Source: Xanthomarina spongicola (GTDB lineage: Bacteria; Bacteroidota; Bacteroidia; Flavobacteriales; Flavobacteriaceae). From it: a DNA stretch of 64,000 nucleotides. The DNA lies in NCBI RefSeq assembly GCF_003148645.1, contig NZ_QGGP01000003.1, positions 62,001 through 126,000 on the forward strand, given 5' to 3'. The notes below the pieces were generated by a model, which was given only the letters and a program-made list of their open reading frames with translations, had not been told where the DNA came from and did not search any database. The position numbers and the translations under genes are program-made. Below are positions 14,572 through 62,759 of this stretch, in pieces; positions within the stretch are counted from its first letter, which is position 1, and each line of letters begins with the position of its first letter.

Positions 14572-17500
14572 ATGTATTTAATTTTCGATACTGAAACCAC
14601 TGGATTACCAAAACGTTGGGATGCACCAATTACAGATACTGATAATTGGCCAAGATGTATTCAAATTGCCTGGCAATTGCATGACGATATGGGAAACTGT
14701 ATCGATCATCAAGATTATTTAATCCAGCCAGAAGGATTTAATATTCCTTACGATGCAGAAAAAATTCATGGTATTTCTACCGAATTAGCGCATGAGCAAG
14801 GAGCTCCTTTAGCAGAAGTATTAGAGAAATTTAATGAAGCCTTAAGTAAAACAAAATTTGTAGTTGGACAAAATGTCAAATTCGACCTCAATATTATGGG
14901 AGCTGAATTTGTTAGGGAAGATATAGCTAACCAATTGCAAGAGCTACCAGTTTTAGATACCTGTACAGAACATACAGCTACACTTTGCCAGCTTCCAGGT
15001 GGACGTTATGGAAAATTCAAACTTCCTACTTTAACCGAGTTACACCAATTTCTATTTAACAAACCTTTTGCTGAAGCTCATAATGCCACAGCCGATGTGG
15101 AAGCAACCACACGTTGCTTTCTGGAATTAATTCGTCGTCAAGAATACACCAAAGAAGAGTTAGACGTTCAGCCAGATTACTTTAAGAATTTTTCTGAAGC
15201 CAATCCTAAAGAAATTCAGTTAATTGGTTTAAAGCACATAAATCTGAAAAAGGAAAGTGCTAAGATTAATCAACGCTTACAACAAGCTCAAACCAGTGAC
15301 GTTTCAGAAGCTGAATTAAAAGAAAATATCTCAGAATTAGCTGAAGTTGAGTTTGTTCATCTTCATAATCATTCTCAATTTTCAGTTTTACAATCAACTA
15401 TTAGTATTCCAGACTTAGTTGCATCAACAGCAGAACAAAACATGTCAGCCGTTGCATTGACAGATCATGCGAATATGATGGGAGCTTTTCATTTTGTAAA
15501 AGTAGTAACCAATCATAATAAAGGAATTCAGGCTAAAAATAAGGAAGCTGAAGCAAGAGGAGAAACTCCATTGTTAAAAGAAATAAAACCCATTTTAGGT
15601 TGTGAATTTTTTGTTTGTGAAGATCATTTAGACAAATCTAGAAAAGATAATGGCTATCAAATTGTATTACTTGCCAAAACAAAAAAAGGCTATCATAATC
15701 TAGCAAAACTATCATCTCATGCATATACAGACGGGTTTTATTATGTGCCAAGAATAGATAAAAAACTCATCCAACAATACAAAGAAGACCTAATAGTACT
15801 AACAGGTAATCTATATGGTGAAGTACCAAGCAAAATATTAAATATTGGTGAAAACCAAGCAGAAGAAGCTTTACTTTGGTGGAAACAGGAATTTGGCACA
15901 GATTTGTATATCGAGTTAATGCGTCACAATCAAGAAGATGAGAACCGAGTAAATCCAGTACTTATAGAGTTCTCTAAAAAACATCAGATTAAACTTGTAG
16001 CAACTAATAACACCTATTACTGCAAACAAGATGATGCCAATGCACATGATATTTTATTATGTGTAAAAGAAGGAGAGAAACAAGCGACACCTATAGGTAG
16101 AGGTCGTGGTTATCGTTACGGAATGCCAAATAAAGAATATTATTTTAAGTCTTCTGAAGAGATGAAAAATCTTTTTAAAGAGATTCCTGAAGCCATTTCA
16201 AACATTCAAGAAGTTGTTGATAAAATTGAAAACTATCAACTAGCAAGAGAAGTTTTACTGCCTAAATTCGATATACCTTCAGAATTTAAAAATGAAGATG
16301 ATTATTTAAGACATTTAACTTATGAAGGTGCTAAAAATCGTTATGAAGACTTAACAGACGAAATAAAGGAACGTATAGATTTCGAGTTAGATGTTATTAA
16401 AAACACAGGTTATCCAGGTTACTTTTTAATTGTTGAAGATTTTATTCGTGAAGCCAGAAAAATGGATGTTTCGGTTGGTCCAGGTCGTGGTTCGGCAGCT
16501 GGATCTGTTGTTGCCTATTGCTTAAAAATAACGAATATAGATCCACTTAAATATAATTTGCTTTTTGAGCGTTTTTTAAATCCAGATCGTATTAGCATGC
16601 CAGATATCGATATCGATTTCGATGATGAAGGTAGAAGTCGAGTTATGGATTATGTTATTGAAAAATATGGAAGTAATCAGGTAGCGCAGATTATTACCTA
16701 TGGTACAATGGCTGCAAAATCTTCCATTCGTGATACAGCTAGAGTGCTCGATTTACCACTTTTTGACGCAGATAGAATTGCAAAGTTAATTCCTACCATG
16801 TCTAAGCTTCATAAAATATTTGGAGCAGACGAGAAGGCATTAAAGAATATGTTTAGAACTGAGGATTTAGAAAAAGTGAATCAGCTTTTAAATATTTCAG
16901 ATGGTGAAGATCTGGAAGCAGAAACAGTAAACCTTGCAAGAATGCTTGAAGGTTCTGTTAGAAATACTGGAATTCATGCTTGTGGTGTTATTATTACACC
17001 AGACGATATTACCAAGTTCGTCCCAGTTGCAACTGCCAAAGATTCCGATTTATACGTTACCCAATTTGATAACTCAGTTGTGGAAGATGCAGGCTTGTTA
17101 AAGATGGATTTCTTGGGTTTGAAAACCTTGACTTTAATAAAAGACACGGTAAAAATTGTAAAAGCCAAACACAACATCGATCTCGATCCAGATACTTTCC
17201 CTTTAGATGATGAAAAAACCTATGAGCTTTTTCAAAAGGGAGAAACAGTTGGTGTTTTTCAATATGAATCTCCAGGTATGCAAAAGCATCTTAAAGAACT
17301 AAAACCAACAGTTTTTGAAGATTTAATTGCAATGAATGCCTTGTATCGTCCAGGTCCAATGGAATACATTCCAAGTTTTACGAGACGTAAACATGGCGAT
17401 GAAGAGATTGATTACGACCTTCCTGCTATGGAAGAATATCTTAAAGAGACCTACGGAATTACTGTTTACCAAGAGCAAGTAATGCTTTTATCTCAAAAAT

Positions 17501-18924
17501 TAGCAGGCTTTACCAAAGGTGAGGCAGATGTTCTTAGAAAAGCCATGGGTAAAAAACAGATTGCGGTTCTAGATAAAATGAAACCTCAATTTATTGAGCA
17601 AGCAGGAGAGAAAGGACATGATAAAGAGAAGCTTGAAAAAATCTGGAAAGATTGGGAAGCCTTTGCAAGTTATGCATTTAACAAATCGCATTCAACTTGT
17701 TATGCTTGGATTGCTTATCAAACAGCCTATTTAAAAGCACATTATCCTGCTGAATATATGGCAGCTGTATTATCCAATAACATGAATGATATCAAGCAAG
17801 TTACTTTCTTTATGGAGGAATGTAAACGCATGAAATTAAATGTGCTTGGTCCAGATATTAACGAATCTTACTATAAATTTTCTGTAAATCAAGATAATGC
17901 AGTTCGTTTTGGAATGGGAGCCATAAAAGGTGTTGGACATGGAGCTGTAAAAACAATTGTTAAGAATAGAAAAGAAGATGGACATTATAAATCAATTTTC
18001 GATTTTGCAAAACGTATTGATTTAAGAGCTGCAAATAAAAAGGCTTTTGAGAATTTAGCTTTGGCTGGAGGTTTTGATTGTTTTGATGATACACATAGAG
18101 CGCAATATTTTCATGATGATGGAGATGGCATCACCTTTTTGGAAAAGGCAATTAAATATGGAGCCAAACATCAGGAAAACGAAAATTCGGCTCAGGTAAG
18201 TTTGTTTGGTGAAGCTAGTAATGTACAGATTGCAGAACCATTAGTGCCTCCATGCGAGGAATGGGGAACTATGGAAAAATTAGCACGAGAAAAAGAAGTA
18301 GTAGGTATTTATATTTCTGGTCATCCTCTAGACGATTTTAAAATAGAAATGAAAACCTTTTGCAATGCCAGTTTGGCATTATTAAGAGATTTGGAGACTT
18401 TTATTAATAGAGAATTGACCTTTGGAGGTGTAGTAACAGATGTGCAACATCGTGTAAGTAAGCAAGGTAAAGGTTGGGCATTATTTACAGTAGAAGACTA
18501 TACAGATAGTTTCGAATTTAGAATTTTTGGGGAAGAATATTTAAAATTTAGACATTTCTTATTAAAGAATTCTTTTATCTATGTAAAATTATTTGTTCGA
18601 GAAGGTTGGCTAAATAGAGACACTGGAAAAAAGAGTGATCCAAGAATTCAATTTAATAATTTCCAATTATTGCATGATGTCATGGATACTTATGCTAAGA
18701 AATTATCAATTCAATTAAATATATCTGATTTAGAAGATACTCGTATTTCAAAGCTTAAAGAATTGTTTACCATGCATGCTGGGAGCCATATGCTTAATTT
18801 TGTTATTTACGATAACGAAGAGCAGATTAAAATTAACATGCCAAGCAGAAAACAAAAAGTAAAAATATCTCAAGAGCTGTTGGATGAATTAGAATTGAAT
18901 GATGTTTTTTATAAATTGAATTAA
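14572..18924 (+). CDS. dnaE: DNA polymerase III alpha subunit with fused N-terminal proofreading exonuclease
   Basis: 1450 residues. Residues 1-190 are a DEDDh 3'-5' exonuclease with Exo I FDTETTG, Exo II around VVGQNVKFDLN and Exo III HNATADVEA, so proofreading should be active. A PHP domain follows (VHLHNHSQFSVL, ALTDHANMMG). The polymerase core has GPGRGSAAGSVVAYCL and the catalytic PDIDIDFDDEGR. The C-terminal part has helix-hairpin-helix and OB-fold regions (LTFGGVVTDVQHRVSKQGKGW). This is the replicative polymerase. DnaE of many bacteria is about 1160 residues; the extra length is mainly the exonuclease. Confidence 0.95.
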   Translation: MYLIFDTETTGLPKRWDAPITDTDNWPRCIQIAWQLHDDMGNCIDHQDYLIQPEGFNIPYDAEKIHGISTELAHEQGAPLAEVLEKFNEALSKTKFVVGQNVKFDLNIMGAEFVREDIANQLQELPVLDTCTEHTATLCQLPGGRYGKFKLPTLTELHQFLFNKPFAEAHNATADVEATTRCFLELIRRQEYTKEELDVQPDYFKNFSEANPKEIQLIGLKHINLKKESAKINQRLQQAQTSDVSEAELKENISELAEVEFVHLHNHSQFSVLQSTISIPDLVASTAEQNMSAVALTDHANMMGAFHFVKVVTNHNKGIQAKNKEAEARGETPLLKEIKPILGCEFFVCEDHLDKSRKDNGYQIVLLAKTKKGYHNLAKLSSHAYTDGFYYVPRIDKKLIQQYKEDLIVLTGNLYGEVPSKILNIGENQAEEALLWWKQEFGTDLYIELMRHNQEDENRVNPVLIEFSKKHQIKLVATNNTYYCKQDDANAHDILLCVKEGEKQATPIGRGRGYRYGMPNKEYYFKSSEEMKNLFKEIPEAISNIQEVVDKIENYQLAREVLLPKFDIPSEFKNEDDYLRHLTYEGAKNRYEDLTDEIKERIDFELDVIKNTGYPGYFLIVEDFIREARKMDVSVGPGRGSAAGSVVAYCLKITNIDPLKYNLLFERFLNPDRISMPDIDIDFDDEGRSRVMDYVIEKYGSNQVAQIITYGTMAAKSSIRDTARVLDLPLFDADRIAKLIPTMSKLHKIFGADEKALKNMFRTEDLEKVNQLLNISDGEDLEAETVNLARMLEGSVRNTGIHACGVIITPDDITKFVPVATAKDSDLYVTQFDNSVVEDAGLLKMDFLGLKTLTLIKDTVKIVKAKHNIDLDPDTFPLDDEKTYELFQKGETVGVFQYESPGMQKHLKELKPTVFEDLIAMNALYRPGPMEYIPSFTRRKHGDEEIDYDLPAMEEYLKETYGITVYQEQVMLLSQKLAGFTKGEADVLRKAMGKKQIAVLDKMKPQFIEQAGEKGHDKEKLEKIWKDWEAFASYAFNKSHSTCYAWIAYQTAYLKAHYPAEYMAAVLSNNMNDIKQVTFFMEECKRMKLNVLGPDINESYYKFSVNQDNAVRFGMGAIKGVGHGAVKTIVKNRKEDGHYKSIFDFAKRIDLRAANKKAFENLALAGGFDCFDDTHRAQYFHDDGDGITFLEKAIKYGAKHQENENSAQVSLFGEASNVQIAEPLVPPCEEWGTMEKLAREKEVVGIYISGHPLDDFKIEMKTFCNASLALLRDLETFINRELTFGGVVTDVQHRVSKQGKGWALFTVEDYTDSFEFRIFGEEYLKFRHFLLKNSFIYVKLFVREGWLNRDTGKKSDPRIQFNNFQLLHDVMDTYAKKLSIQLNISDLEDTRISKLKELFTMHAGSHMLNFVIYDNEEQIKINMPSRKQKVKISQELLDELELNDVFYKLN

Positions 18925-38872: not shown

Positions 38873-39133
38873 ATGAAAAGTACAAACGAATTAAAAGCCA
38901 ACATTAAAAAATACATTTTAGAAGCATCTTTGTCTGATGTGAAAGATGTGGAAGACGATGCCTTGATTTTTGAAAATGGCTTATTGGATTCTATGGGATT
39001 ATTGTTTCTTATTGAATTTTTAGGTGAATCCTTTCAGGTTGAGGTAAGTGATGAAGAATTAAATCCAAAAAATTTCGAATCCATTAATAATATTGTCTCT
39101 TTCGTATCCAACAAACTATCTGTAAAAGTTTAA
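38873..39133 (+). CDS. Acyl carrier protein of a small biosynthetic cluster
   Basis: 86 residues. The phosphopantetheine attachment site is Ser40 in GLLDSMGLLFLIEF, with the usual helix-rich acidic character (SDEELNPKNFES). It differs from the fatty-acid ACP, which sits in fab operons and has DSLD rather than DSMG. It is followed within 30 bases by an asparagine-synthase-like gene, then NadE-like and AMP-ligase genes. The product is therefore likely an acyl or aminoacyl group carried on this protein (inference). Confidence 0.88.
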   Translation: MKSTNELKANIKKYILEASLSDVKDVEDDALIFENGLLDSMGLLFLIEFLGESFQVEVSDEELNPKNFESINNIVSFVSNKLSVKV

Positions 39134-39162
39134 GTTCTTCAGCAAACAACAACTAATTTAAC

Positions 39163-41136
39163 ATGTGTGGCATAGCTGGCTTTTATGGTAATATAAACAA
39201 AGAGCAATCTCTTCCTACATTACAACGCATGCTTACTAGAATCAAACATCGTGGTCCAGACCAAAGTGGTGTTTATGTTTCTAGCAAAGTAGGTATAGGT
39301 AGTGTTAGGCTTAGCGTTATTGACCTTAGTTCAGGTACTATGCCAATTTCCAATCAAGACGATAGCTTATGGATTGTGTTTAATGGAGAAATATTTAACT
39401 ATATAGAACTTAAGGAAGACCTAATTCAAAAAAAACACGTCTTTAAAACCCATAGCGATACCGAAGTTATTCTTCATCTATTCGAAGAATATGGTCCAGA
39501 ATGTCTCAAAAAATTAAACGGACAATTTGCCATTGCCATTTGGGATAAAAATAAAGAAGAATTGTTTTTAGCTAGAGATCGTGTAGGTATAAGACCTTTG
39601 TTTTACACAAATGTTAACGATACGTTCGTATTTGCTTCAGAAATAAAATCCTTTTTAGAATATCCAGAAATCAATCTTCAGTTTTCAGGTAAAGCCCTTT
39701 CAGAATATGTGACTTTTTGGACGGCTCTTTCACCAAATACAGTTTTTGAAGATGTTTTTGAAGTGCCTCCAGGAACTTATATGCTAATTAATTCTGAAAA
39801 AATTACAAGCAAAAATTATTGGGAGTTACCTATTGTAAAGCCAGGCGAATACAGTTATACAAATATTGAAGAAGCTGCAAAAGCTTTTGAAGATATTTTT
39901 TTAGATTCTATTAAATTGAGACTTCGAGCAGATGTACCAGTAGCAGCTTACTTAAGTGGAGGTATAGATTCGAGTATTACAACATCTTTTATTAAGCAGG
40001 TTTCTCCAGAAAAATTGAGAACCTTTTCTATTGGTTTTACTGAAAAAGATTTCGATGAATCTGCTTATCAAAACATAGCAGCTTCCTATTTTAGCACAGA
40101 ACATTCTAGTGTTACTTGTAGCGAAAAAGATATTTCGAATCACTTTAAAGAAGTTGTTTGGTTTACCGAAGCGCCACTTTTACGAACAGCTCCAACACCA
40201 ATGTGCTTGCTTTCTAAAAGTGTTAGAGACCAGAATATAAAAGTGGTTATTACTGGCGAAGGTGCCGACGAACTTTTAGGAGGTTATAATATTTTTAAGG
40301 AAACTAAAATCAAGCACTTTTGGGCAAAAGATCCACAATCTAAATACAGACCTTTATTGTTAAAAAGACTGTATCCATATTTACCACAGATTAGCAATTC
40401 TAGCAGTAACATGCTAAAAATGTTTTTTGGATATAAGCTAAATGAAACCGAATCTCCAATTTATTCGCATTTGTTAAGATGGCATAATACCAGCAGAATT
40501 AAGAACTATTTTTCTGAAACAATTAAAGAAAATATTAAAGATTATACTCCAATTGAAGATTTAGAAAACCAACTGGAATCTAAATTAAATGGCTACGATT
40601 ATCTTACAAAAGCACAATGGTTGGAAATTCATTTATTTATGTCTGGTTACTTATTGTCTTCGCAAGGAGATAGAATGGGAATGGCAAATTCTATTGAAGG
40701 TCGCTATCCGTTTTTAGACCATCGCGTTATTGAATTTTGTATGACATTACATCCAGATTTAAAACTTCATGGATTAAACGAAAAATATCTTCTTAAAAAA
40801 ATGATGGCAGGTAGATTGCCAGAAGAAATATTAAACAGATCCAAACAAGCCTATCGAGCTCCAATTAGAAGCCTTTTTGTTTCTGAAGAATTGCCCGAAT
40901 ATTTAAAAACCATGCTTTCAGAAGATTGCATTGCAGAATTTGGTATTTTTAATGTAGAGCATGTGAAAACCTTACACGCCAAGATAACAACAAATAAAGG
41001 CGTATCAGAAATAGATAATATGGCTATAACTGCTATTTTATCCATTCAGATTTTATACGATTTATTTGTAAAAAGAACCATTCCAAACCTAACTGAATCT
41101 GATTTAATCACACTAGATAAAATAATTATTGAATAA
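39163..41136 (+). CDS. asnB: Asparagine synthase-like glutamine amidotransferase
   Basis: 657 residues. The class II glutaminase domain starts with catalytic Cys2 in MCGIAGFYG and has RIKHRGPDQSG and IVFNGEIFNY. The synthetase domain has the ATP-pyrophosphatase motif SGGIDSS (265-271) and TGEGADELLGGY. Both halves look active. The enzyme would move ammonia from glutamine onto an adenylated carboxylate. In asparagine biosynthesis it acts alone, but here an ACP, an NAD-synthase-like protein and an AMP-ligase are adjacent, so another substrate is likely. Confidence 0.9.
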   Translation: MCGIAGFYGNINKEQSLPTLQRMLTRIKHRGPDQSGVYVSSKVGIGSVRLSVIDLSSGTMPISNQDDSLWIVFNGEIFNYIELKEDLIQKKHVFKTHSDTEVILHLFEEYGPECLKKLNGQFAIAIWDKNKEELFLARDRVGIRPLFYTNVNDTFVFASEIKSFLEYPEINLQFSGKALSEYVTFWTALSPNTVFEDVFEVPPGTYMLINSEKITSKNYWELPIVKPGEYSYTNIEEAAKAFEDIFLDSIKLRLRADVPVAAYLSGGIDSSITTSFIKQVSPEKLRTFSIGFTEKDFDESAYQNIAASYFSTEHSSVTCSEKDISNHFKEVVWFTEAPLLRTAPTPMCLLSKSVRDQNIKVVITGEGADELLGGYNIFKETKIKHFWAKDPQSKYRPLLLKRLYPYLPQISNSSSNMLKMFFGYKLNETESPIYSHLLRWHNTSRIKNYFSETIKENIKDYTPIEDLENQLESKLNGYDYLTKAQWLEIHLFMSGYLLSSQGDRMGMANSIEGRYPFLDHRVIEFCMTLHPDLKLHGLNEKYLLKKMMAGRLPEEILNRSKQAYRAPIRSLFVSEELPEYLKTMLSEDCIAEFGIFNVEHVKTLHAKITTNKGVSEIDNMAITAILSIQILYDLFVKRTIPNLTESDLITLDKIIIE

Positions 41137-41149
41137 AACCATTAAAACC

Positions 41150-42127
41150 ATGAAAGAAGCACGTAGACCATTTTCAAAGGAGATTATTCATATAGAAAAT
41201 ATTGACCAAGTTTGTAATAAAATTATAGCCAAACTTAAAATCGATGTGACCAAAAATTTACAACGTCGTGGAGCCATTGTTGGTATAAGTGGAGGAATCG
41301 ATTCGTCGGTTTGTTTGGCTTTATCTGCAAAAGCTTTTGGTTCAAAAAACGTGTTGGGTATCATGCTTCCAGAAAAGGATTCTAGTGATGATAGTCGACA
41401 ATTAGCCGAAAAATTAGCTGCTACCTATGGTGTAAGCACGTTAGTTGAAGACATCACAAAAGCATTAGATGGTTTTGGTTGTTACGAAAGAAGAGACGAA
41501 GCCATTTTACGTGTGATTCCAGATTTCGACAAAAAAGTAGATAAAGCTAAAATTGAAATCAAACAAAATATAGCTGAAAATATTCCAGCAATTTTCTCTA
41601 TAACTGTTATTAAACCTAATGGAGACGTGGTAAGTAAACTTTTACCAGCAAGAGAATATTTGCAGATTGTAGCTTCAACAAATTTTAAACAACGTAGTAG
41701 GATGTCTATGCTGTATTATCATGCAGAACGTATGCATTATGCAGTTATTGGAACGCCTAATAAACACGAAGTTGAGCAAGGGTTTTTTGTAAAACATGGA
41801 GATGGAGGAGCAGATGTTATGCCAATTGGGCATTTTTACAAAACGCAAGTGTATCAAATAGCAAAACATTTAGGAGTGCCACAAGAAATTATAGACAGAA
41901 CACCAACTACAGATACCTATACAGCAGAGCAGTCTCAAGAAGATTTCTTCTATCAAATGCCTTTTGCATCCATGGATTTAATCTGGTATGGTTGGGAAAA
42001 TAACTATCCAGCAGATGAGGTTGGAAAAGTAATGGGCAAAACAACCAAAGAGATTGAAAATATCTATAAAAGCTTTGAAAGAAAAAGAAAAACAACCGAG
42101 TATTTAAGGATGCGACCTATATTTTAA
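41150..42127 (+). CDS. nadE: NAD synthase-like ATP-dependent amidase/synthetase
   Basis: 325 residues from ATG 41150; a TTG at 41129 overlapping asnB is less likely. The ATP-pyrophosphatase loop SGGIDSS is at 47-53. Conserved NadE patterns are VIGTPNKHEVEQGFF and KTQVYQIAKHLGVP. There is no glutaminase domain, so ammonia is used or supplied by the AsnB-like neighbour. The C-terminal part after DRTPTTDTYTAEQ is longer than in the common 270-residue NadE. It may be the only NAD synthase or a cluster-specific paralogue. Confidence 0.82.
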   Translation: MKEARRPFSKEIIHIENIDQVCNKIIAKLKIDVTKNLQRRGAIVGISGGIDSSVCLALSAKAFGSKNVLGIMLPEKDSSDDSRQLAEKLAATYGVSTLVEDITKALDGFGCYERRDEAILRVIPDFDKKVDKAKIEIKQNIAENIPAIFSITVIKPNGDVVSKLLPAREYLQIVASTNFKQRSRMSMLYYHAERMHYAVIGTPNKHEVEQGFFVKHGDGGADVMPIGHFYKTQVYQIAKHLGVPQEIIDRTPTTDTYTAEQSQEDFFYQMPFASMDLIWYGWENNYPADEVGKVMGKTTKEIENIYKSFERKRKTTEYLRMRPIF

Positions 42128-42137
42128 ATTAGAATAC

Positions 42138-43595
42138 ATGAATGTTTTTGATTACTTTTTTAAATCTACACAAAACCTTGAAAAGGACTTTTTATTGGGT
42201 TCAAAGGAAACAATTTCATTTAATAAACTCTATTCCAACAGTTTAAAAATAGCTGCGTTTTTAAATAGATACATTGGAGCAGAAAAGAACATTATTTTAA
42301 TAAGCCCGAACTCAAAATTCTTTATAACTACTTATTTGGGCATATTAAAATCTGGGAATGTTTGCGTTCCATTAAATTTCGCTATAGAACAAGAAAATCT
42401 AGATTTTATAATCAATACAACAGAATGTGACACCATTTTCATTGCAAAAAGTGTCAGATCAAAATATACCATTCCGTCATACATTCATGTTATTGAGGAA
42501 AAGGATTTAGAACAAATTATCGACAATCAATCTATTGAGGATTATTATGTTGAGGTTAAGAAAAATCAGTTGGCAGAAATTATTTTCACTTCAGGATCAA
42601 CAGGGATTCCAAAAGGTGTCATGATAAGTCATGAAAATATTATTGCTAACACTAATTCAATTATATCTTATTTAAACCTAACGTCTAAAGATATTATGTG
42701 TGTGGTATTACCTTTCTTTTATTGCTATGGATTATCACTTTTACACACACATTTAAGAGTTGGTGGTTCTATTATTTTAAACAATAGTTTTATGTTTTTA
42801 GGAGCTGTTTTAAACGATTTAAAAGACTATAGATGTACTGGTTTTGCTGGTGTTCCAAGTCATTTTCAAATCTTGTTGAAAAAATCAAAAACTTTTAAAA
42901 CTACATCATTTCCAGATTTAAGATATGTAACTCAAGCAGGTGGAAAATTACATTCGGTTTTTATTGATGAATTTGTAAAAGCTTTCCCAAAGATAGAATT
43001 TTACGTGATGTATGGACAAACCGAGGCTACAGCCAGATTGTCTTACTTAGATCCAAAAATGATTCATAAAAAAATGAATTCCATTGGAAAACCTATCCCT
43101 AATGTCAAGTTTAAAATTGTAGATGATAAGGGTGAGACCACTGGAGTTAACCAAGAAGGCGAATTATTAGCCAAAGGTAAAAACATTATGCTGGGTTACT
43201 ATAAAGAGGAAGAAGAAACCCAAAATACCATTAAAAATGGTTGGCTTTATACAGGAGATGTCGCCATAGTTGATGAAGACGGCTATTATTATTTGAAGGC
43301 CAGAAAAAAAGAAATATTAAAAGTAGCAGGAAAAAGAGTAAGTCCAAAAGAAATTGAAGAAGTCATCCTTTCAGTTGAAGAAGTCATGGATTGTACAATT
43401 TCTGGTTACGACGACGATTTATTTGGTGAAGCAATACAAGCAACCATAGTAGTAAATGGCTCTTTTGATGAAGAACAATTAAAAGAGAAAATACTGCATA
43501 TTTGTTCTAAAAAATTGGCAATTTATAAGATGCCACAAAAAGTTGTTTTTGAAAAGGCATTAAAGGTAAGTGCTACTGGAAAAAAAATTAAATAG
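42138..43595 (+). CDS. AMP-forming acyl-CoA synthetase/ligase
   Basis: 485 residues. ANL-superfamily motifs are intact: P-loop TSGSTGIPKG starting at residue 151, YGQTEATARLSYL, LYTGDVAIVDEDGYYYLKARKKE, and C-terminal catalytic Lys in ATGKKIK at the very end. It activates a carboxylic acid as the acyl-adenylate and loads CoA or a carrier protein. The ACP encoded at 38873 is the obvious acceptor. It is last of the four co-oriented genes; the gap from nadE is 10 bases. Confidence 0.88.
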   Translation: MNVFDYFFKSTQNLEKDFLLGSKETISFNKLYSNSLKIAAFLNRYIGAEKNIILISPNSKFFITTYLGILKSGNVCVPLNFAIEQENLDFIINTTECDTIFIAKSVRSKYTIPSYIHVIEEKDLEQIIDNQSIEDYYVEVKKNQLAEIIFTSGSTGIPKGVMISHENIIANTNSIISYLNLTSKDIMCVVLPFFYCYGLSLLHTHLRVGGSIILNNSFMFLGAVLNDLKDYRCTGFAGVPSHFQILLKKSKTFKTTSFPDLRYVTQAGGKLHSVFIDEFVKAFPKIEFYVMYGQTEATARLSYLDPKMIHKKMNSIGKPIPNVKFKIVDDKGETTGVNQEGELLAKGKNIMLGYYKEEEETQNTIKNGWLYTGDVAIVDEDGYYYLKARKKEILKVAGKRVSPKEIEEVILSVEEVMDCTISGYDDDLFGEAIQATIVVNGSFDEEQLKEKILHICSKKLAIYKMPQKVVFEKALKVSATGKKIK

Positions 43596-43602
43596 TATAA
43601 TA

Positions 43603-44274
43603 TTAAGAAACCACTATTTTATTTATGGACTTATTATAAAGCACTAAATATTCGTTTGAAACTTCTTCAAATTTTATAGATTTTATAAATAAAAAACATG
43701 ATACAGTTCTTACCACATAAGGGCTAAAACCAGCATAATTATAAGATCTTGATGTGTTAATGTTTTTTACTTCGCCAAAGGTTATGGCAGATTTAGCGCC
43801 TAAGACTTTGCTCTTTTCAGATACATCATATAAGAAAGAAGGAATGATTCCCATACCTCTAAATTTTGGAATTGTAAACACATTCTCAAGTAAAACCTCA
43901 TCTGACTTAAGTTGAGGAAACCTATTTCCCCAAATGGATTTTAGTTTTTTGTTCTCTGTAGAATCAATTAACCAAACTCTAGCACATGGAATATTTTCCT
44001 TGGTAACACCAATATAACAGGTTTTAAAATTAAGAATCAAGCCGTTGTTTGGGTTGTCTATAAAATATGGCTCATCTTCTTCAATAAACTCACGAATAGT
44101 TATGGGTTTAAGCGTTCTGGGCTTTTTAAAGGGGACACTTAAATCCCGTTTAAAACCGAAAGCTATTTCTTTGGAGTACAACCTATTTAAAAATACATTC
44201 CAAACATATTTAATCCTACCTTTTTTAATTAATTTAGGTAAAATGGCAATTTTATGGAAGGGATGACTACTCAT
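43603..44274 (-). CDS. GNAT-like acyltransferase
   Basis: 223 residues. An N-terminal segment of about 60 residues is followed by a GNAT-like fold: CARVWLIDS, then VLLENVFTIPKFRGMGIIPSFLYDV, which holds the acyl-CoA loop motif RGMGI, and NYAGFSPYVVRTVSCFLF. It converges on the AMP-ligase with only 7 bases between stops. It may belong functionally to the ACP cluster as a tailoring acyltransferase, but opposite orientation makes this uncertain. Confidence 0.65.
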   Translation of the reverse strand: MSSHPFHKIAILPKLIKKGRIKYVWNVFLNRLYSKEIAFGFKRDLSVPFKKPRTLKPITIREFIEEDEPYFIDNPNNGLILNFKTCYIGVTKENIPCARVWLIDSTENKKLKSIWGNRFPQLKSDEVLLENVFTIPKFRGMGIIPSFLYDVSEKSKVLGAKSAITFGEVKNINTSRSYNYAGFSPYVVRTVSCFLFIKSIKFEEVSNEYLVLYNKSINKIVVS

Positions 44275-61850: not shown

Positions 61851-62759
61851 ATGAGCAGACATCAAGGTAGCAGTAGTAAAGGAAAATCTTCAGGAAGAGG
61901 ACAGCAGAAAGAAGGAGCTAACCAAGCAGGTCGTGGAGGCAATACATCTCATAACAAAAGTTATTCTAGAGGAAATTCGCCTATTAAAAAGCAACAATTT
62001 TCTGCAAGTAAGCCTCAAACAGAGAAAAAGGCTTCTGCTAAAAAGTCGAATCCAGATGAGATTCGTCTTAACAAATACATAGCTAATTCTGGGATTTGTT
62101 CACGTAGAGAAGCAGATGCACATATTGCTATTGGACTTGTAACCGTTAATGGGAAAGTGATTACTGAAATGGGTTACAAAGTAAAACTGGAAGATGAGGT
62201 TCGATATGATGGAACTCGTATAAATCCAGAAAAGAAGGCTTATGTTTTATTAAATAAGCCAAAAGGATTTGCAACTACAACTGCAGAAGGAAAAGGTAGA
62301 ACTGTTATGGATTTGGTGGCAAATGCTACATCATCTAGAATAAAACCAATTGGTCGTTTGGGCAGAAACTCTAAAGGACTTTTATTGTTTACTAATGATG
62401 AAACTATAACCAAAAAATTCACCAATTCTAAAAATGGAGTACCACGTTTATTTCAAGTTGAATTGGATAAGAACTTAAAAATTGAAGATCTTAAAAAAAT
62501 TAGAGAAGGTTTTAAAGTAGATGGTAAACATATTGCTGTAGAAGAAATTAGTTATATAGATGGAGCCTCAAAAAAAGAAATTGGTCTAAAAATTAAGAAT
62601 ACAGGAAACACTATTTTGAGAACTATTTTCGACGAATTAAAATACGAAATTATAAGTATAGATTGCGTTGCTATAGGACATCTTACTAAAAAGGATATTC
62701 CAAGAGGACATTGGAAACATCTTACTGAGCAGGAATTAAATACTCTAAAAATGTTATAG
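61851..62759 (+). CDS. RsuA/RluB-family pseudouridine synthase homologue, active site altered
   Basis: 302 residues. A Gly/Ser/Lys-rich basic N-terminus (1-68) precedes an S4 RNA-binding domain (IRLNKYIANSGICSRREADA) and the synthase domain. The catalytic motif GRLDRxTxGLL reads GRLGRNSKGLLLFTND, with Gly171 (codon GGC 62361-62363) for the catalytic Asp. Motif II KxYxV is RLFQV and the late LDR is IDC. LTKKDIPRGHWKHLT is normal. It may bind RNA without modifying it. The frame is intact, so it is not a broken gene by sequence. Confidence 0.85.
   Translation: MSRHQGSSSKGKSSGRGQQKEGANQAGRGGNTSHNKSYSRGNSPIKKQQFSASKPQTEKKASAKKSNPDEIRLNKYIANSGICSRREADAHIAIGLVTVNGKVITEMGYKVKLEDEVRYDGTRINPEKKAYVLLNKPKGFATTTAEGKGRTVMDLVANATSSRIKPIGRLGRNSKGLLLFTNDETITKKFTNSKNGVPRLFQVELDKNLKIEDLKKIREGFKVDGKHIAVEEISYIDGASKKEIGLKIKNTGNTILRTIFDELKYEIISIDCVAIGHLTKKDIPRGHWKHLTEQELNTLKML

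Follow-up and report, generated by a model that had tools for sequence, protein, structure and literature searches.

Why should a carrier protein be encoded together with two amide-forming enzymes and an acyl-activating ligase? The question is raised by a stretch of 64,000 nucleotides from Xanthomarina spongicola (positions 62,001 to 126,000 of contig NZ_QGGP01000003.1; its whole length is called the window here), in which four co-oriented genes at 38873-43595 encode an acyl carrier protein (ACP), an AsnB-like glutamine amidotransferase, a NadE-like ATP-pyrophosphatase and an AMP-forming acyl ligase, with the gene of a GNAT-fold acyltransferase convergent to them. The original prediction held that these proteins form a biosynthetic set that could load an acid on the carrier, amidate or ligate it and release a small amide, and that the set recalls parts of exosortase-A-associated clusters, although without an exosortase; that interpretation is partly supported by the present analysis. 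The set is real and conserved, is probably partly mis-annotated, and is apparently undescribed as a set. With slightly better than even confidence we read it as a carrier-protein acylation module, similar to the Dlt and Alm systems, that puts a carboxamide-bearing acyl group on a glycan. The five genes are as follows (lengths in amino acids, aa).

38873..39133, plus strand: ACP or peptidyl carrier protein, 86 aa, attachment Ser in DSM (LLDSMG)
39163..41136, plus strand: AsnB-like glutamine amidotransferase/ATP-pyrophosphatase, 657 aa, both domains present (PF13537, PF00733)
41150..42127, plus strand: NadE-like ATP-pyrophosphatase of the PRK00876 clade, 325 aa, above the NF002048 cut-off
42138..43595, plus strand: AMP-forming acyl ligase with a type I pocket (LPFFYCYGLSLLH / YGQTEATARLSYL), PF00501 and PF13193
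43603..44274, minus strand: GNAT-fold acyltransferase, 223 aa, convergent, assigned by fold search and co-occurring with the operon in the genus

Within the operon the intergenic spacers measure 29, 13 and 10 bp; 7 bp separate the ligase gene from the convergent GNAT-fold gene. Open reading frames (ORFs), family matches and the predicted GNAT fold confirm this arrangement, and the motifs and domains bear out the earlier description of a carrier with an intact Ser, a complete glutamine amidotransferase, a NadE-type ATP-pyrophosphatase and an acyl-activating enzyme. The window ACP has the phosphopantetheine Ser by which a Dlt-type carrier is recognized; its NCBIfam carrier-protein matches (best AmcB, 3.8e-9, and DltC, PRK05087, 1.1e-8) are all under the curated cut-offs, and a PDB search returned carrier proteins, led by the peptidyl carrier protein 2my5 (6.8e-10) and including the D-alanyl carrier 6bug (8.1e-6). 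The motif [IVLN][IVLMF][DE]S is found in the ACPs of 64 of the 65 loci with a called ACP, the remaining one having FIDS. The AsnB-like protein combines a glutaminase domain (GATase_7) with an Asn_synthase domain and carries an N-terminal MCGI as well as SGGIDSS and GEGADE; it is above the general TIGR01536 cut-off and under those of TIGR03108 and TIGR03104, and its best PDB match is 7ylz, a hydroxyamidotransferase. The start of the NadE-like gene had been listed as a TTG at 41129, but the ATG at 41150 fits its relatives, whose matches start at residues 6-10 of the long form; the protein belongs to the Pfam family NAD_synthase, contains SGGIDSS and reaches 428.8 bits with NF002048/PRK00876 against a curated cut-off of 313. 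The ligase contains AMP-binding and AMP-binding_C domains. An oxalate-CoA ligase is its top PDB match, but the aligned pockets differ, the His of LPLFH in the oxalate enzyme being Tyr in the window, and we do not read the match as pointing to oxalate. The 223-aa protein has no Pfam or NCBIfam match; its predicted model (predicted local distance difference test score, pLDDT, 82.8) matches PDB GNAT enzymes in Foldseek with a best E of 8.8e-8 and a probability of 1.00, matches that are moderate (TM-score about 0.5 by query length) and sufficient for a GNAT-fold assignment. They include VipF, glucosamine N-acetyltransferase and mycothiol synthase, with the TDP-fucosamine acetyltransferase WecD at rank 50.

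Are these more than neighbours by chance? NF002048 was above cut-off in 13 of 395 genomes sampled from the whole phylum, as it was in one of 14 control genomes, the archaeon Methanosarcina acetivorans. AsnB, NadE and ligase occur together in 9 of the 12 loci other than the window's that came from the phylum and relatives searches (loci and genomes are labelled L and G below); the AsnB gene is split in L031, the ligase is on the opposite strand in L029 and L031, and the exceptions are L030 (no AsnB called), L032 (no ligase called) and L036 (NadE gene missed by the ORF filter). Named genomes yielded at least 584 confirmed stretches with the clade patterns, and all named-locus statistics refer to the best 80 of these, which are mainly from Bacteroidota, with Chloroflexota, a cyanobacterium, Acidobacteriota and others, so that the fractions describe that sample. 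Forty-six of the 80 have at least 5 kb on each side, 34 being dropped for short flanks; L086 and L111, without a NadE ORF by the first filter, were included in this co-occurrence analysis. By six-frame hidden Markov model (HMM) searches, an ACP is found within 5 kb of the NadE-like gene in 40 of the 46 loci, an AsnB in 40, a ligase in 42 and all three in 36; within 10.5 kb the counts are 45, 45, 44 and 43, the three exceptions being L078 (no ACP called), L087 (no ligase) and L115 (neither AsnB nor ligase). None of the three was found near canonical nadE at 17 control loci from relatives. The gene set recurs and the control is empty, which confirms that it is more than a chance neighbourhood.

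The set also reaches plasmids, where the NadE-like protein was found in 116 records (Sinorhizobium 76, Azospirillum 12, Ensifer 9, Shinella 8, Mesorhizobium 7). Of the eight alphaproteobacterial plasmid records examined, five (Mesorhizobium, Nitratireductor, Shinella, Azospirillum and Rhizobium ACO-34A) have all four genes annotated as adjacent to one another. In Sinorhizobium meliloti ml21, ACP, ligase and nadE are annotated and AsnB was recognized by HMM in two ORFs; two further, unannotated S. meliloti records gave AsnB (in each a single 645-aa ORF), ligase and NadE by HMM, the ACP not being called by the ORF filter; and pSymB of S. meliloti 2011 has AsnB-like, ligase and NadE-like genes. 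The four-gene core is thus common to Bacteroidota, Chloroflexota, a cyanobacterium and Alphaproteobacteria, and the idea of a dedicated set, for which a search for the same gene order in other phyla had been suggested, holds. No description of the gene set as a whole was found in the literature searched, a search beyond whose reach most subscription journals lie. In S. meliloti (L202) and in Rhizobium sp. ACO-34A (L206) the module and minCDE are a few kb apart at most.

Housekeeping functions are encoded elsewhere. The source genome has a second, separate nadE besides the module gene; canonical nadE was found in 38 of 40 relatives searched, including all eight genus genomes, and a separate NAD synthetase gene in each of 16 further module genomes reached via the named loci (for G471 this is a weaker match, located in a frame of 670 aa). 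Another AsnB of about 555-585 aa, the standard one judging by its length, is present in all eight genus genomes. The reading that had been allowed for at the outset, in which these would be the only nadE and asnB and stand together by chance, therefore fails on both counts. L115, from an Acidobacteriota metagenome-assembled genome, has two NadE-like genes in addition to the canonical one.

Within the genus the five genes are gained or lost together as one unit. Five genomes, G000 and G002-G005, have the NadE-like gene, which G001, G006 and G007 lack; the GNAT-fold gene has the same distribution, the module AsnB occurs in the same five of eight genomes with 85-100% identity, and the four other positive genomes carry the complete five-gene block, arranged as in the window. 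The three negative genomes keep the flanking STAS, DUF4440 and DUF4407 genes at 72-89% identity and miss the block, the DUF4440-DUF4407 spacing being 56 bp in G007, 88 bp in G001 and about 730 bp, with one other ORF of 168 aa between, in G006, whose assembly is 75% complete. Neither ACP nor ligase matched on the block-free stretches of these three genomes, to which that search was confined. It is this shared presence and absence, together with the block-free sites, that indicates joint gain and loss. The site adjoining the module is variable in content too: in the congeners G003 and G005 two extra genes lie between the DUF4440 gene and the ACP gene (L024:13082-15098, L026:12920-14936).

What, then, does the NadE-like enzyme do? 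We compared 91 NadE-like sequences (including two same-genome pairs, L024/L040 and L026/L064) with 17 canonical sequences, the latter from relatives only. SGGxDS, GTxNxxE, KxGDG, D222, P225, K231 and the NxxxRxR helix are common to both groups, and the ATP-pyrophosphatase positions SGGxDS, GTxNxxE, KxGDG and Lys231 (window residue) are each kept in 90-91 of the 91 NadE-like and in all 17 canonical sequences. Around the substrate the two differ. The NadE-like clade has an insert of about 50 residues (about 111-160) that canonical enzymes lack, in which Y112, A118 and K134 are invariant and C111, R114, R115 and D116 are present in 85-88 of the 91; canonical PSDGL is replaced by PTTDTY; and the C-terminal His of all 17 canonical sequences aligns with Thr in 83 of the 91. 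In human NadE the adenine ribose is contacted by a C-terminal His, and the site is covered when the P2 loop closes (PMC6946656); by alignment, the P2 loop would begin at the PSDGL region and the canonical C-terminal His would correspond to human His648, so that the clade would lack both substrate-region features of NAD synthetases. The predicted AlphaFold model (pLDDT 90.9) has its best PDB fold match in 2e18, an NAD synthetase by its sequence record (TM-score 0.84 by target length, 0.67 by query length). The protein thus appears to be a functional ATP-pyrophosphatase of the amide-forming kind whose substrate site has been altered. NadE enzymes of the single-domain type use ammonia (PMC3376133), which makes the adjacent AsnB glutaminase a natural source of it; channelling of ammonia from AsnB to the NadE-like enzyme is speculation.

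The ligases offer a first handle on the acid. In an alignment of 65 sequences, one from the window and the others from 64 named loci, 49 share the type I pocket of the window ligase, LPF[FY]YC[YF]G with YGQTEATARL; Asp replaces its Cys in 14, all from other loci (13 of them LPL[AS]FDYGLYQ), and Ile in two. The Asp of FDYG coincides in the alignment with FD of the linear gramicidin synthase adenylation domains, and we take it to bind the alpha-amino group of amino acids. The window ligase has Cys, not this A4 Asp by which a Dlt-type amino-acid ligase would be known, and with Cys at the amino-group position its substrate is likelier to be a non-amino acid. The Asp-type ligase is found in Mesorhizobium and S. 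meliloti, and three of the remaining Alphaproteobacteria have Gly.

A second handle is a PrmC-like methyltransferase. It is encoded in seven named loci (the L068 copy reaches 200.7 bits with TIGR03534 against a cut-off of 199.1), has NPPY in every copy except one of two in L093, and is an extra paralogue, a second, higher-scoring prmC being present in all seven genomes. The gene occurs in seven of the 14 loci with Asp-type ligases and in none of the 51 others, the window included. The seven loci fall within one ligase clade of nine tips (support 1.0), and on the NadE tree the gene's distribution takes four changes; the single ligase clade set against these four changes suggests that the methyltransferase travelled with its ligase from one NadE background to another. 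Mesorhizobium AR07, with an NPPY HemK-like gene beside an Asp-type module, is apparently an independent case. The PrmC family name denotes methylation of the glutamine side-chain amide, and this activity, going with one ligase type, points to an amide that sits on the ligated acid.

Where would such an acyl group go? Neighbour families were counted over 90 loci (80 named and 13 from the phylum and relatives searches, minus three without a NadE ORF), their labels being assigned from sequence and context except for MBOAT, methyltransferase and VOC, which are database-based. Recurrent neighbours are a sugar-phosphate transferase (26), a Wzc-like protein (21), a left-handed-helix (LbH) acyltransferase (20), a Wza-like protein (18), MBOAT (16), GT4 (15) and a secreted family with the motif F-x-H-[HQ]-S-x-G (15). 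At least one of the sugar-phosphate-transferase, Wzc, Wza and GT4 families is near 28 of the 45 named loci with 5 kb flanks, and LbH, MBOAT or GNAT near 24 of them; none of the tested families was found at the 17 canonical-nadE control loci. A clear MBOAT (>200 bits) lies on the same stretch in 14 of 78 named loci, and its presence takes seven changes on the NadE tree, to which partial loci add noise. The MBOAT of L068 matches DltB in TIGR04091 at 1.8e-47, under the cut-off, and DltB structures are its sole PDB matches (6bug, 4.1e-25; 8jem, 2.5e-24). No DltB-type MBOAT is in the window's block, the source genome's one MBOAT being on another contig; the MBOAT of the genus was considered as the module's surface transferase and rejected, MBOATs being also present in the module-free G001 and G007 and the locus of the source genome's MBOAT being free of module genes. 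Next to the module, Shinella, Nitratireductor and Rhizobium ACO-34A encode a GNAT-related protein of about 360 aa that has homologues at L028 and L029, both from the window's phylum (E about 1e-41 to 1e-30); Pfam matches it weakly or not at all, and the neighbour in Azospirillum is annotated as GNAT. The polysaccharide-assembly genes, together with the DltB-like, GNAT and LbH partners found elsewhere, favour transfer to a glycan over a free amide, and it is in the final release step that our reading departs from the original prediction, the loading and amidation enzymes being present as proposed.

Two further kinds of neighbour deserve mention. A secreted-looking family of the F-x-H-[HQ]-S-x-G type recurs across phyla (L027, L062, L063, L067, L073, L079, L091, L102, L114, L119 and others); many, not all, members carry this type of motif, and neither of the members tested, those of L091 and L027, matched a family in Pfam or NCBIfam. 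Profile comparison links three of the secreted families to one another (probability 95-97%); they match at 22 of the 117 loci searched and at no control locus, and two other families labelled SGNH-like proved unrelated to these three; the secreted-looking proteins are possibly surface acyltransferases or esterases. A VOC gene resembling methylmalonyl-CoA epimerase, under the TIGR03081 cut-off, is near seven loci, on the opposite strand in one; it might mean that the alpha carbon of the acid is acidic, a hint to which we give little weight. In the window itself, among 18 genes scanned with Pfam, only the GT2 and LPG_synthase_TM genes at 29.9-32.0 kb might, outside the module, touch glycolipids. 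The window also encodes, at 14572-18924 on the plus strand, a DNA polymerase III alpha of 1450 aa with an N-terminal RNase_T-type exonuclease (residues 3-182) before PHP.

Of the schemes that give each of the five proteins a role, the simplest has a small acid loaded on the ACP, amides formed by the AsnB-like and NadE-like enzymes, and the resulting group passed to a glycan by an acyltransferase. The substrate, product and acceptor in it are our proposal, built on the families, the conserved catalytic motifs and the altered substrate region of the NadE-like protein. It is proposed that the AMP-ligase would adenylate a small carboxylic acid and load it onto the conserved Ser of the ACP. The AsnB-like enzyme would take ammonia from glutamine and amidate a carboxylate of the acid, before or after loading, and the NadE-like enzyme, an ATP-pyrophosphatase core lacking a glutaminase domain, may amidate a second carboxylate or act at an adjacent step, perhaps with ammonia from AsnB. 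The acyltransferase (GNAT in the window's genus; GNAT, LbH or a DltB-like MBOAT elsewhere) would then transfer the acyl group carried by the ACP to a precursor of a cell-surface glycan, at one of its amines or hydroxyls. Ligases of the second type probably activate an amino acid, and at some of their loci the PrmC-like enzyme probably N-methylates the amide.

Several observations weigh against this scheme. No member with a known product was found in the literature searched. The neighbour statistics rest on the 80 best loci, mostly Bacteroidota with a few near-duplicates; eight of the 45 flanked loci show neither the tested glycan families nor the acyltransferase families, and the window copy lies outside any polysaccharide locus. 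All seven PrmC-bearing named loci belong to the one ligase clade and may thus represent one acquisition; the gene is missing from the Asp-type loci L066, L077, L106, L112, L113, L114 and L118, some of which are partial, and from the stretch examined of the Asp-type S. meliloti module, and is optional in Asp-type modules. The NadE-like enzyme keeps the catalytic motifs of NAD synthetase, and NCBIfam names its family NAD(+) synthase.

The main rival, which we consider unlikely, is that the AsnB-like and NadE-like enzymes amidate a sugar, for example a nucleoside diphosphate (NDP)-uronic acid to the uronamide, and that this sugar also receives an acyl group of its own through ligase, ACP and GNAT. 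Nicotinic acid adenine dinucleotide, the acid that NadE amidates, and NDP-sugars share a diphosphate-linked ring able to bear a carboxylate, and the NadE-like proteins keep GF(F/Y)xKxGDGxxD and the NxxxRxR helix. In Porphyromonas gingivalis the linking sugar of the type IX secretion system contains a glucuronamide that requires the AsnB homologue PGN_1234 (WbpS), and the GNAT-like VimA sets the amino acid of that sugar (PMC7468200). A family read as a nucleotide-sugar dehydrogenase does occur near the module, in only three of the 90 loci, and the C-terminal His of canonical NadE, probably an adenosine contact, is replaced. The PrmC-like methyltransferase, moreover, tracks the ligase type and so speaks for an amide on the ligated acid and not on the sugar.

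The other alternatives are less probable. That the GNAT releases a freely diffusible amide natural product onto a small amine seems quite improbable to us: it would suit a window copy without an adjacent polysaccharide cluster, the closeness of AsnB and ACP to a hydroxyamidotransferase and a peptidyl carrier protein in the PDB, and the transport, min and regulatory genes that are the nearest annotated neighbours in S. meliloti and Shinella, whereas no exporter or thioesterase was recognized among the top 30 recurrent neighbour families and glycan-assembly genes and DltB-like MBOATs do recur. We regard it as very improbable that the NadE-like protein is a second NAD synthetase among unrelated housekeeping genes, as the family name and the kept ATP and catalytic motifs would allow; against this stand the separate nadE and asnB genes, the clade insert and the altered loop, and mere chance neighbourhood is rejected by those separate genes, the co-conservation, the empty control and the behaviour of the block in the genus. 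Most improbable of all is a fragment of an exosortase-A (XrtA) associated cluster, the likeness that had been pointed out at first. TIGR03108 and TIGR03098 are indeed among the best named relatives, and the type II ligase of L091 comes nearer to TIGR03098 (442.8 bits against a cut-off of 592.35), but the window proteins score far under the cut-offs (433.5 against 816.9 for TIGR03108 and 286.4 against 592.35 for TIGR03098) and the exosortase family PF09721 is in none of the five module-bearing genus genomes, the source and four congeners. These sub-cut-off scores and the lack of PF09721 in the genus genomes searched contradict such a cluster for the window; in G032, of another genus, PF09721 is just above cut-off (26.2 against 25.7 bits).

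If the carrier-protein acylation reading is true, a large family named NAD(+) synthase by NCBIfam, with at least 584 stretches and 116 plasmid records, does something else, and a surface-chemistry pathway that crosses phyla becomes testable in the legume symbiont S. meliloti 2011. The product could then be approached by two handles, the pocket type of the ligase and the amide methyltransferase tied to one of the types. A bolder joint claim, which we offer tentatively and at a little under even confidence, is that a widespread clade of NAD-synthetase homologues, recruited together with an AsnB homologue, builds acyl groups with one or two amides on a free-standing carrier, N-methylated in some lineages by a captured PrmC-type enzyme, which GNAT, LbH or DltB-like transferases then attach to surface glycans, forming a third pathway beside Dlt and Alm whose product bears a previously undescribed chemical group.

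How does the module compare with known systems? Dlt D-alanylation employs the ligase DltA, the carrier DltC, the MBOAT DltB and DltD. The module likewise has a ligase and a carrier, its MBOAT in L068, the one searched, matches only DltB in the PDB, and secreted or membrane-anchored proteins recur beside it; it differs in its two extra amide-forming enzymes, and in the window by a ligase with Cys and not Asp and by a GNAT in place of an MBOAT. AlmEFG glycinylates lipid A in Vibrio cholerae with a ligase, a stand-alone carrier and an acyltransferase acting on a surface glycolipid, a combination that the module shares, whereas Alm is without amidotransferases. From XrtA/PEP-CTERM clusters, whose TIGR03098 and TIGR03108 are among the closest named families of the module's two large enzymes, it is set apart by scores under the cut-offs, by the lack of an exosortase in the genus genomes searched and by the added NadE-like enzyme. 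The Wbp/Vim linking-sugar pathway resembles it in that WbpS (AsnB-like) and VimA (GNAT-like) build a surface sugar bearing both an amide and an aminoacyl group in Bacteroidota; the available portion of that paper names no NadE-like enzyme or AMP-ligase and has no mention of "acyl carrier" (PMC7468200). In the O-polysaccharide locus of Flavobacterium psychrophilum, which includes wfpD (ACP) and wfpG (PglD-like acyltransferase), the acyl group comes from a fatty-acid-type pathway and "ligase" is not mentioned in the accessible text, but, as in our proposal, an ACP-bound acyl group is predicted to pass to a sugar, here an NDP-amino sugar, and this in a Flavobacterium (PMC6519341).

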